A stretch of 64,000 nt of DNA from NCBI GenBank assembly GCA_013791955.1, contig VMSW01000007.1:1426001-1490000 (forward strand), written 5' to 3'. The notes under the pieces were generated by a model, which saw only the letters and a program-made list of their open reading frames with translations, was not told the origin of the DNA and ran no database searches. The position numbers were made by a program, and so were the translations under genes. Position 1 is the first letter of the stretch, and each line of letters begins with the position of its first letter. The DNA is from Propionicimonas sp. (GTDB taxonomy: Bacteria > Actinomycetota > Actinomycetes > Propionibacteriales > Propionibacteriaceae). Of the stretch, positions 1-2,131 are shown in pieces.

Positions 1-322
1 GTCCTTCCAGAAGCCCGGGCGTTGCCGGTTTCGTTGCACGCAGAACGGCCCGCGTCAAGGCACGGGTCGTCGATGGCATTGGGCAAAGCGTTAGCCTACC
101 GGAAGGCCCCGAATTTCTGCAAATGACCCTGGGCACGCCGATCGCCCTCGCCCGAGAGTCGATCCAGGCGAGCTCGCAGGATCGACAGTGATCCGCGCCC
201 AACTGCCACCCGGGCCAGCTGTGTGCCCCATGATAGCCACGCCCAATGGTCCTTTTTCTACTTCAAGGTGAACGCCGACTCACCGCGACGGGCGCGTGGC
301 TCAGCTGAGAGGTCCGGACACA
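1..322. other. Left-edge region without a supported gene
   Basis: No confident gene is seen here. One plus-strand frame (frame 3) is open from the window edge to a TGA at 189-191 and could be the last ~62 codons of a gene starting outside the window, but its third-position GC is lower than in the neighbouring genes and I recognise no motif. The rest, up to the hairpin at 323, has no coding signal on either strand. Confidence 0.3.
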
Positions 323-384
323 CCTAGGGCCGGTGCCTGTAGGCAGCGGGAGGGGTTGCCGCACCTTACAGTCACCGGCCCAGG
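323..384. other. Long imperfect hairpin in intergenic DNA
   Basis: Arms GGGCCGGTG (327-335) and CACCGGCCC (373-381) pair perfectly. They are extended outward by CCT/AGG with one bulged base and inward, after one mismatch, by CTGTA (337-341) with TACAG (367-371). Inside, GGCA (342-345) can pair with TGCC (357-360). No T-run follows on either strand, so it is not a standard intrinsic terminator. It could be a structured RNA, a terminator remnant or a protein site. It lies downstream of the XRE/TPR regulator gene. Confidence 0.45.
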
Positions 385-435
385 CGGTGTACTCATCCGA
401 CGCGCTAGGGGGGCGCCGACTGGTATAAGTCCACC

Positions 436-461
436 AGACTTGACCAGTTGGTGTCAAGTCT
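436..461. repeat. Inverted repeat across the stop codon of the regulator gene
   Basis: AGACTTGAC (436-444) and GTCAAGTCT (453-461) are perfect 9-bp arms with an 8-bp spacer, and the right arm contains the regulator's stop codon (454-456). The core TTGAC/GTCAA is the same half-site that recurs in the promoter region at the other end of this gene, and another copy (TTGTCAA) follows at 463-469. It may be a weak terminator hairpin, or a second binding site for the regulator. Confidence 0.5.
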
Positions 462-1710
462 TTGTCAACGTTTCTTCCTCGGAATCTCCGAAACTCTGTC
501 GCCAGGCCTTTACCGCGGCCCGCATCCGGCCCTCATGCTCAAGCGACTCAGCCGCGCCTCGGAACTGGGCGCGGGCCTCTGGCTCGCGTCCAAGGGCCAG
601 CAGAGCTTCAGCCCGCAACAACTCGGTGTTGCTACGAGACAGTGCCGTCGCGCCCATTACCGGATCGACCAGCACCTCAGAGGTGATCCGCAGCGCCTCC
701 ACCGGATCCCCGGTACGCAATGCGAGCTGCGCCTCTACCTGCCGTAGTTCGACCAGGTCGTAGGTGTTGCCAAGGATCTCCAAGCCCAGGGCCGCGGTAC
801 GAACCAACTGCGGCACCCCGTCCACAATGCCCGCACTCAGCAGGCAACTGGCCGCCGACCGATGGAACCGTGACCAAAGGCGCAGGTCGCGGCGAGCATC
901 CAGCAACTCCTTGGCCTCCCGGTGATGGGCGATACCTGAAGCCGCGTCGCCAGCCGCGAACTCCGCGGTGCCGATGGCCCAAGCGATCATTCCGCGGGAG
1001 TGATCGGAGGTCAGTTGCGGGGCCAATTCGGCGAGTCGGCGAAGGTAGCGGCTACTCTCGTCAGGCGAGTGACCTGCCTCCGACATGGCGCTGACTAGGG
1101 ACATTAATGCCTCGGCCGCAATAATCGGTGGCGCACTCGAGGAGGCCTCTACTGCCCGCGCCCCGTAGGCAACGGCCCAACCGAGATGGTCAGCGGCACG
1201 GTGGGAGATGGACGCCAGAGACAACGCCTGGGAACGCGCTACCGCAAACCGACGGGCGGTTGGGTGTTCAGCCAACCGCTCGGCAAGGTCAGCGGCGTCG
1301 GCGAACTCGCCCGAGGCGAACAACGCCTGCGCCATCACATAGCGCGATTCCCACTCACGGCCCAGATCGCCAGCCGCAACTGCAGCCTCGGCCGCCTGCT
1401 TGGCATGCCGCAGCGCTGCGTCCCAGTCGTGGTCTGACCATGCTCGCTCAGCTACCAGGAGGTCTTCGATGGGGTCACGGATGGCTTGGATGCCATCGAC
1501 CTTGCCGGTGACACCCCACTCCAGCAGCGACACTCCCAGTCGACGAGACACAAAGTCGAGGACTTCAGGGGTCGCTACTCGGCGTCCGCTCTCCAGATGG
1601 GAGATGTAGCTGCCCGAATACTTGCCGTCACCAAGCTCCACCTGCGACAGGCCCTTCTTCCGGCGGGCTTCACGGAGCAATGCACCGAACTCAACCGCAC
1701 TCGTGTCCAC
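454..1710 (-). CDS. XRE-family helix-turn-helix regulator with C-terminal TPR-like helical domain
   Basis: A 418-residue predicted cytoplasmic transcription factor. Residues ~8-62 form a Cro/C1-type HTH (GLSQVELGDGKYSGSYISHL, then ESGRR). The remaining ~340 residues are Ala/Leu-rich amphipathic helices of the TPR type seen in RRNPP regulators such as PlcR, Rgg and NprR, where this domain binds a short peptide. I place the start at GTG 1710 because AGAGAGG lies 9 bases upstream. An in-frame TTG at 1731 would add seven residues, but its TTGACA looks like an operator half-site. It is divergent from a small secreted peptide gene, with 116 bp between the two starts, full of TGTCAA/TTGACA half-sites. 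Peptide sensing is inferred from architecture and context. Confidence 0.85.
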   Translation of the reverse strand: MDTSAVEFGALLREARRKKGLSQVELGDGKYSGSYISHLESGRRVATPEVLDFVSRRLGVSLLEWGVTGKVDGIQAIRDPIEDLLVAERAWSDHDWDAALRHAKQAAEAAVAAGDLGREWESRYVMAQALFASGEFADAADLAERLAEHPTARRFAVARSQALSLASISHRAADHLGWAVAYGARAVEASSSAPPIIAAEALMSLVSAMSEAGHSPDESSRYLRRLAELAPQLTSDHSRGMIAWAIGTAEFAAGDAASGIAHHREAKELLDARRDLRLWSRFHRSAASCLLSAGIVDGVPQLVRTAALGLEILGNTYDLVELRQVEAQLALRTGDPVEALRITSEVLVDPVMGATALSRSNTELLRAEALLALGREPEARAQFRGAAESLEHEGRMRAAVKAWRQSFGDSEEETLTKT

Positions 1711-1750
1711 GCTACGCGACCTCTCTGTCAATTTTCTGGTCCATCAAATC

Positions 1751-1788
1751 TGTCAAATCTTGACAAACTAGTCAAGCTTGACTAACTT
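1751..1788 (+). promoter_or_regulatory. Promoter of the small peptide gene with operator palindromes
   Basis: A consensus -35 TTGACA (1760-1765) and a -10 TAACTT (1783-1788) are separated by exactly 17 bp. A 16-bp perfect palindrome, TAGTCAAGCTTGACTA (1769-1784), fills the spacer and touches the -10. A second inverted repeat, TGTCAA-ATC-TTGACA (1751-1765), covers the -35. More half-sites lie at 1726-1731 (TGTCAA), 1790-1795 (TAGTCA) and 1803-1807 (GTCAA). A repressor bound here would block RNA polymerase. The divergent XRE/TPR protein is the obvious candidate. Confidence 0.8.
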
Positions 1789-1826
1789 CTAGTCATCGAG
1801 CCAGTCAAGAGAGAGGCTTTGGAGCC

Positions 1827-1988
1827 ATGAACTTCCGCAGGATCATCGCTACCGTAACTATCACCGGCGCCATCATGGCCCTTCCTATCACTTTGGTCGC
1901 TTCCAACGGCATGAGCGCCGGCGGAGTAGGCGGCACTTCCAAGATCATCACCATCCAGGGTGGACAGGGCAACTGGCCCCTGAAGTGA
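1827..1988 (+). CDS. Small secreted peptide precursor, possible signalling peptide
   Basis: A 53-codon ORF with ATG at 1827, GGAG just upstream (1821-1824) and TGA at 1986-1988. The product has a short basic start (MNFRR), a hydrophobic stretch of ~20 residues (IIATVTITGAIMALPITLVA) and possible signal peptidase sites after Ala25 (LVA) or Ala31 (MSA). The tail is Gly-rich and ends SKIITIQGGQGNWPLK. It has its own strong promoter and a hairpin terminator ~55 bp downstream, so it is a dedicated single-gene unit. I do not recognise a family. Its place next to a TPR regulator suggests a pheromone-type pro-peptide; a bacteriocin-like or stress peptide is the alternative. Confidence 0.7.
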   Translation: MNFRRIIATVTITGAIMALPITLVASNGMSAGGVGGTSKIITIQGGQGNWPLK

Positions 1989-2043
1989 CCCAGGTCGCGT
2001 TGTACTCGCTCTCCCCTAGCTAACAACACACCACCTCCAGAAG

Positions 2044-2086
2044 AACAGGAATGGCGAGTGCCCCACCGGCACTCGCCACTCCTGTT
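2044..2086 (+). terminator. Hairpin terminator after the small peptide gene
   Basis: TGGCGAGTGCC (2052-2062) pairs with GGCACTCGCCA (2068-2078) around a 5-base loop. The stem is lengthened by AACAGGA (2044-2050) with TCCTGTT (2080-2086) beyond one A/C mismatch. No clear T-run follows. Confidence 0.7.
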
Positions 2087-2131
2087 CCCAGACCCGACCG
2101 AGGTCCGCCAACCTCAGCCCAGGTCATTCAA

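Follow-up and report, generated by a model that had tools for sequence, protein, structure and literature searches.

Beside rpoB in a Propionicimonas sp. genome, a gene for an XRE-type regulator with a helix-turn-helix (HTH) and a tetratricopeptide repeat (TPR)-like domain lies divergent from a 53-codon gene for a small, secreted-looking peptide. Is the peptide a signal for the regulator, and what would the pair control? We addressed these questions in the 64,000-nucleotide stretch (the window) that spans positions 1,426,001 to 1,490,000 of contig VMSW01000007.1 (assembly GCA_013791955.1; genome size 3.1 Mb). Our reading, with a probability of about 0.78, is that these two genes are a peptide-signalling module that follows RRNPP-like logic, controlling its own peptide gene and an extra rpoBC promoter. 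It is close to certain that they are a conserved functional pair, and very likely that the peptide is the signal of the receptor. The features needed here are, in window coordinates:

454..1710, minus strand: XRE-TPR regulator, a putative pheromone receptor; GTG start, 418 amino acids (open reading frame (ORF), Pfam HTH, AlphaFold, TPR-superhelix matches, homologues)
1827..1988, plus strand: 53-codon signal-peptide-like precursor of a putative pheromone; ATG at 1827, stop at 1988 (ORF, genus conservation, alignment A5)
1959..1985, plus strand: conserved C-terminal core GGQGNWPLK; putative mature signal within (conservation, pN/pS, repeats in relatives)
1751..1775, plus strand: operator 1 (predicted), TGTCAAATCTTGACA then AACTAGTCAA, with the inverted repeat TTGAC-N6-GTCAA at 1760-1775 (genus conservation)
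1760..1788, plus strand: peptide promoter, -35 TTGACA (1760-1765), 17 nt, -10 TAACTT (1783-1788) (layout repeated in relatives)
440..457, minus strand: operator 2 (predicted), TTGACACCAACTGGTCAA, overlapping the regulator stop codon and facing rpoB (presence/absence across rpoB loci)

Conserved pairing of regulator and peptide gene

A sequence-only reading of this DNA had described a 418-residue XRE regulator and a divergent 53-codon ORF with a basic start, a hydrophobic stretch and the tail IQGGQGNWPLK, and both reading frames hold. The regulator runs on the minus strand from the GTG at 1710 to a stop codon at 454-456, and its start codon lies 116 bp from that of the plus-strand peptide gene. 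Using a profile built from 19 regulator sequences (E <= 1e-10), we found homologues in 35 of 198 family genomes, representing 9 of 29 genera; the family (f1 of the comparison set) also takes in Micropruina-, Brooklawnia- and Desertihabitans-like genomes, and NCBI places Propionicimonas in Nocardioidaceae. Within the genus, 16 of 30 genomes carry the regulator, and a profile of 14 genus peptides matches the same 16 (E <= 3.5e-17), each time adjoining the regulator. The 14 profile members match by construction, and the informative part is that the peptide is not convincingly matched in the 14 regulator-less genus genomes, which gave two weak partial matches (E 0.009 and 0.04). Several of these 14 are incomplete; G010, G012, G016 and G020 are 95-99% complete.

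At the family level, we scanned within 900 bp of the regulator for ORFs of 40-115 codons with a GxW-type motif and a signal-peptide-like start, the latter defined by a crude filter (a basic N-terminus, then an uncharged hydrophobic stretch). The co-conservation of a neighbouring small ORF, on which the sequence-only reading had staked its proposal, was found in all 16 regulator-bearing genus genomes and, as a signal-peptide-like ORF with a GxW[P/Y/K]-type motif, at 35 of 36 family regulator loci, against 3 of 260 overlapping window tiles as background. The exception is a metagenome-assembled Micropruina genome (L049), which has a similar motif in a neighbouring frame. L019 was considered as a locus lacking the peptide and was rejected as such, its five-unit precursor starting ~330 bp away.

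Conservation and repetition of the peptide core

The genus peptides share a C-terminal G-Q-G-[N/S/G]-[W/Y]-P (alignment A5), in which G46, Q47, G48 and P51 are invariant and W50 nearly so (Y in L009). Across 14 sequences, uncorrected pN/pS (nonsynonymous to synonymous polymorphism) rises from 0.25 for the core through 0.57 for the signal region to 1.38 for the linker. Purifying selection acts on the core but not on the linker, and the earlier expectation of a conserved 53-codon frame is borne out, with the C-terminal core as its conserved part. Micropruina peptides have cores such as GGFGDWPVS, and other family precursors carry SEGMWP, SLGPWP or HGVWP at the extreme C-terminus, or the core GGGEGHW.

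At four family receptors the precursors contain several units: L019 has five copies of GGGIWPK, and there are three copies each of GGGIWYK at L116, GEGIWY at L117 and DRGIWY at L118. The repetition in these precursors marks the core as the active part. Genome G125 carries two of these receptors, L117 and L118, each beside its own three-unit precursor, and offers a natural case for specificity testing. The window's own precursor has one core, tandem cores being found in relatives; its putative mature signal would lie within the GGQGNWPLK region.

Predicted structure of the regulator

Pfam HTH_3 matches residues 12-65 of the regulator (E 2.4e-9), and TPR matches occur below Pfam cut-offs only. 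The AlphaFold model (mean predicted local distance difference test score 90.8, predicted template modelling score 0.77) shows an HTH followed by a long series of paired helices, in keeping with the earlier description of the protein. Foldseek matches to this model are TPR superhelices, including LGN and MalT domain III (TMq 0.59); among them are PlcR-PapR7 (3u3w, rank 29, E 1.5e-4, TMq 0.27), Rap-CSF (4gyo, rank 40, E 3.6e-4, TMq 0.49) and the pLS20 Rap (TMq 0.43). At the sequence level, the HTH profile matches PlcR (E 2.7e-8) and also ComR. No RRNPP model is among the family models listed for the regulator, and matches to defence-system models are confined to its HTH part.

The predicted model thus combines an N-terminal HTH with a C-terminal TPR superhelix, as RRNPP receptors do, and the adjoining gene encodes a small precursor that the crude filter described above judges to be exported. 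The predicted fold is that of a TPR superhelix yet the sequence match is confined to the HTH, so we regard the regulator as RRNPP-like by predicted anatomy and not necessarily as an RRNPP member by descent. The RRNPP-type design put forward by the sequence-only reading gains support from the co-conserved small ORF, the conserved C-terminal core, the multi-unit precursors and the predicted TPR superhelix.

Predicted operators at the peptide promoter and upstream of rpoB

The intergenic region of the genus reads TGTCAAAT-TTGACA plus an additional GTCAAG half, and the 3.1 Mb genome has a single exact copy of TTGACANNNNAGTCAAG. The right half of operator 1 falls in the spacer of the peptide promoter. 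We counted the repeat pattern TTGAC-N4..9-GTCAA at 18 regulator loci and found it at both the peptide promoter and the regulator 3' end in 12 of them; L030 has two further repeat copies and L003 has four repeats. The pattern was not found in the remaining 59.5 kb of the window, nor in 31.6 kb of regulator-less rpoB loci. The whole genome holds ten copies, two of these at the module, and 47 of the reversed control pattern.

Upstream of rpoB, the inverted repeat is present at 15 of 16 assessable regulator-bearing loci (the miss being L074) versus none of 10 regulator-less loci; the count leaves out L065, L078, L079 and L080, which are not assessable. Because the regulator end overlaps the rpoB promoter region, the element and the presence of the regulator are not independent, and the conservation of the element across genera with changed spacers is a stronger point than its co-presence with the regulator. 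This rpoB-side element, like the multi-unit precursors and the class-wide spread described below, was not listed in the earlier note.

By eye, TTGACA occupies the -35 position at both sites, with the GTCAA half inside the spacer and a -10-like hexamer after 17-18 nt; the rpoB-facing -10 hexamer is weak. As for the consensus promoter that the sequence-only reading gave the peptide gene, a consensus promoter scanner reported no promoter at the peptide gene, whereas the TTGACA-17-TAACTT spacing, also read by eye, belongs to a layout conserved in the genus. Judged from the sequences, rpoBC is a likely target in the genus, in Micropruina and at L113 and L122, and the TTGACA of operator 2 could serve as the -35 of an extra rpoBC promoter. 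Repression by the free regulator is favoured because the operator overlaps the -35.

Putative receptors and peptides across the class

An 18-receptor profile matched 93 of 394 class genomes in 38 of 138 genera (E <= 1e-20). We examined 61 loci outside the family; 9 of 13 in the order, 24 of 28 in the class and 10 of 20 further loci (three more are doubtful) have a small ORF that is signal-peptide-like and carries one of several recurrent endings. The recurrent endings are WCC, WPxMCC, xCC, GNWPDPM repeats, DISWP repeats and IEWP, and in distant actinomycete relatives the peptides mostly end in WCC, MCC or CC. A scan for CC endings, restricted to flanks, found them at 15 of 28 class loci versus 0 of 19 and 1 of 49 background tiles; W endings in class loci were counted without a background scan of their own. 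Multi-unit precursors recur at this distance, with GNWPDPM x3 and x2 (L164 and L167, in G367 and G622, divergent from the receptor), DISWP x3 and DIGWP x2. No peptide was found at the Kribbella-like receptors L127 and L129, at L131, L140, L144, L154, L156 and L157, or at 7 of the 20 loci in the third set outside the family.

In a receptor tree of 72 rows, a branch supported at 100/99 separates all 23 receptors with GxW-type peptides from all 33 with CC-type peptides, and 16 receptors without a clear peptide are scattered. Three loci of small-genome actinomycetes (L179-L181, family f29) have GGxWCC peptides (GGIWCC in L179 and L181), which unite a GxW core with a CC ending. An independent search of plasmid records met two regulators, one with a peptide and one for which none was found. 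The former, on Streptomyces goshikiensis plasmid NZ_CP115937.1 (L191 2983-4798), is of the XRE-TPR type, and the next gene encodes a hypothetical protein whose last residues are KDIPLCC; a putative regulator with a BTAD domain is annotated close by. For the window module itself, a phage origin was rejected (zero phage records matched), as was a plasmid origin (weak matches to eight plasmid records, none of which extended over 80% of the query).

We give roughly even odds to a broader proposal, namely an undescribed pheromone class across actinomycetes that would be sensed intracellularly by XRE-TPR receptors, with a GxW-P/Y/K branch (often multi-copy) and a Cys-Cys branch. In the window family, with its rplL-rpoB site, cell density would set core RNA polymerase through a pheromone-controlled extra rpoBC promoter. 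If so, linear-peptide pheromones would be widespread in actinomycetes, antibiotic producers included, and their communication would be accessible to simple synthetic peptides.

Proposed mechanism and alternative explanations

The analysis itself supplies the pairing, its conservation, the core, the operators with their layout and the predicted fold; we infer that the peptide is exported, trimmed, imported and bound, as well as the sign of control and the rpoBC effect. The 53-residue precursor would be exported through its signal sequence and then trimmed, and a fragment with GGQGNWPLK would be the signal. This fragment would re-enter the cell via an oligopeptide importer (the genome encodes five oligopeptide-type binding proteins, SBP_bac_5, a generic feature) and bind the regulator at its TPR superhelix. 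The inverted repeat TTGAC-N6/7-GTCAA, which the regulator may bind, overlaps the -35 and spacer at two promoters: the peptide gene promoter (plus the regulator's own, divergent) and a proposed extra one at the regulator 3' end facing rpoBC. Free regulator would repress both, and relief by the peptide would create a positive feedback loop and make RNA-polymerase synthesis rise with cell density. A pheromone setting rpoBC transcription would tie population sensing to transcription capacity; to our knowledge, such control is known nowhere else.

Several points weigh against this proposal, in which translation, secretion, import and binding are predictions. Full-length sequence homology to known RRNPP receptors was not found, the HTH part alone matching PlcR and ComR, and many non-RRNPP TPR proteins, LGN and MalT domain III among them, outrank RRNPP members in Foldseek. 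The GxW motif of the family scan was defined after the peptides had been seen, and no peptide was found near the Embleya regulator, the other one met in plasmid records. Because 14 of 30 genus genomes lack the module, any rpoBC control by it would be dispensable. Of 18 loci, three (L028, L051 and L119) have the strict operator at the peptide promoter alone and three (L029, L048 and L114) at neither place. Lacking towards rpoB at 6 of these 18 loci, and with weak -10 hexamers at operator 2, the element leaves some room for a cognate signal-receptor pair whose target is not rpoB: operator 2, overlapping the regulator stop codon, could act on the regulator transcript, and the second repeat would be a roadblock or antisense promoter at the regulator end, or a leftover of duplication. 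We consider this possible but doubtful, for operator 2 is tied to the presence of the regulator, and its direction and layout copy those of the peptide promoter in the genus (g1), in Micropruina and at L113 and L122.

The role of the peptide could also be different. Small secreted peptides beside XRE regulators are common, and sensing by the regulator is an inference here, so the small protein might be a secreted effector (bacteriocin-like, or a cell-surface peptide) that is controlled by the regulator and not sensed. Conservation limited to a short core, identical cores repeated in several lineages, a peptide kind that tracks receptor phylogeny and a predicted receptor fold of the peptide-binding type make this unlikely. 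We judge it similarly improbable that the module monitors secretion, with an unexported precursor or a retained fragment binding the regulator on export failure and so signalling stress in secretion or at the envelope. In such a scheme a cytoplasmic receptor whose ligand bears a signal peptide would need no importer; however, the core lies after the signal sequence and separate from it, and multi-unit precursors make sense if processed outside. That the ORF is not a gene has a negligible probability: open frames are plentiful in GC-rich DNA, but conservation, purifying selection and co-occurrence contradict a chance frame, and we rejected it.

Other features of the locus

On the minus strand the gene order is rplK, rplA, a GNAT-like gene, rplJ, rplL and the XRE-TPR regulator, with rpoB and rpoC just beyond the window edge; the names rplK, rplA, rplJ, rplL and GNAT-like are those we take to apply from the sequences. 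Two further features flank the module:

292..423, minus strand: conserved leader that separates the regulator from rpoB and contains a long hairpin, CCCCTCCC in its loop (alignment A6)
2043..2087, plus strand: hairpin 3' of the peptide gene, a probable terminator (-36.6 kcal/mol, z -8.6)

In the rpoB leader, 9 of 20 predicted pairs have compensatory changes (15 loci). A comparison with Rfam gave no family at gathering score, and chance-level matches only below it. Regulator-bearing genus loci have the leader signature, which was not found in the other 14 rpoB loci tested. As for the terminator attributed to the peptide gene by the sequence-only reading, a very stable hairpin is there and a clear U-run is not. 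Directly before this hairpin, a CCACC[C/T]CCAG-like motif (2031-2051, plus strand) forms the one match in the window; it is also found 3' of the peptide in many genus loci.

Comparison with known systems

Our literature search covered open PMC papers, with preprints and most subscription journals outside this scope, and no account of an actinobacterial RRNPP-like peptide system turned up. In the excerpts consulted, small molecules are given as the typical signals of actinobacteria, with peptide systems assigned to Bacillota (PMC10075063), or peptide systems are discussed for Firmicutes (PMC9765709) with a likewise Firmicutes focus in PMC13220807. In these reviews, peptide signalling through cytoplasmic receptors is described as a Bacillota trait, and actinobacteria are given small molecules or cyclic or modified peptides.

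The model of the NsdA-type TPR regulators of Streptomyces (NCBIfam NF053720) is matched by 8 of 18 members of alignment A4 (best E 2.3e-9); it is not among the families listed for the window regulator at E <= 0.01. We know of no peptide partner of NsdA. Rap proteins lack a DNA-binding HTH. Their Phr precursors can contain several pheromone copies or near-copies, as an excerpt on Phr105 and Phr3T describes (PMC11343458). The likeness to these tandem precursors lies in the repeated cores in relatives' precursors, and the difference in the phylum (Bacillota) and the sequences.

The RRNPP systems Rgg-SHP and ComR-ComS belong to streptococci. There, an XRE-TPR regulator adjoins the peptide gene and the operator lies by the -35, and the HTH of the window regulator matches ComR. 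SHP and ComS are shorter than precursors of the window type, and the window module differs further in its divergent genes, signal-peptide-like precursors and GxW core. PlcR-PapR, an RRNPP system of the Bacillus cereus group, likewise combines an XRE-type HTH and a TPR domain with an adjoining small gene for an exported precursor, and PapR carries its signal at or near the precursor C-terminus. The resemblance extends to the HTH profile match and the Foldseek match to 3u3w given above. In contrast to PlcR-PapR, to which the window regulator has no full-length sequence match, the window module has a longer TPR domain, another peptide core, another phylum and a second operator at rpoB.
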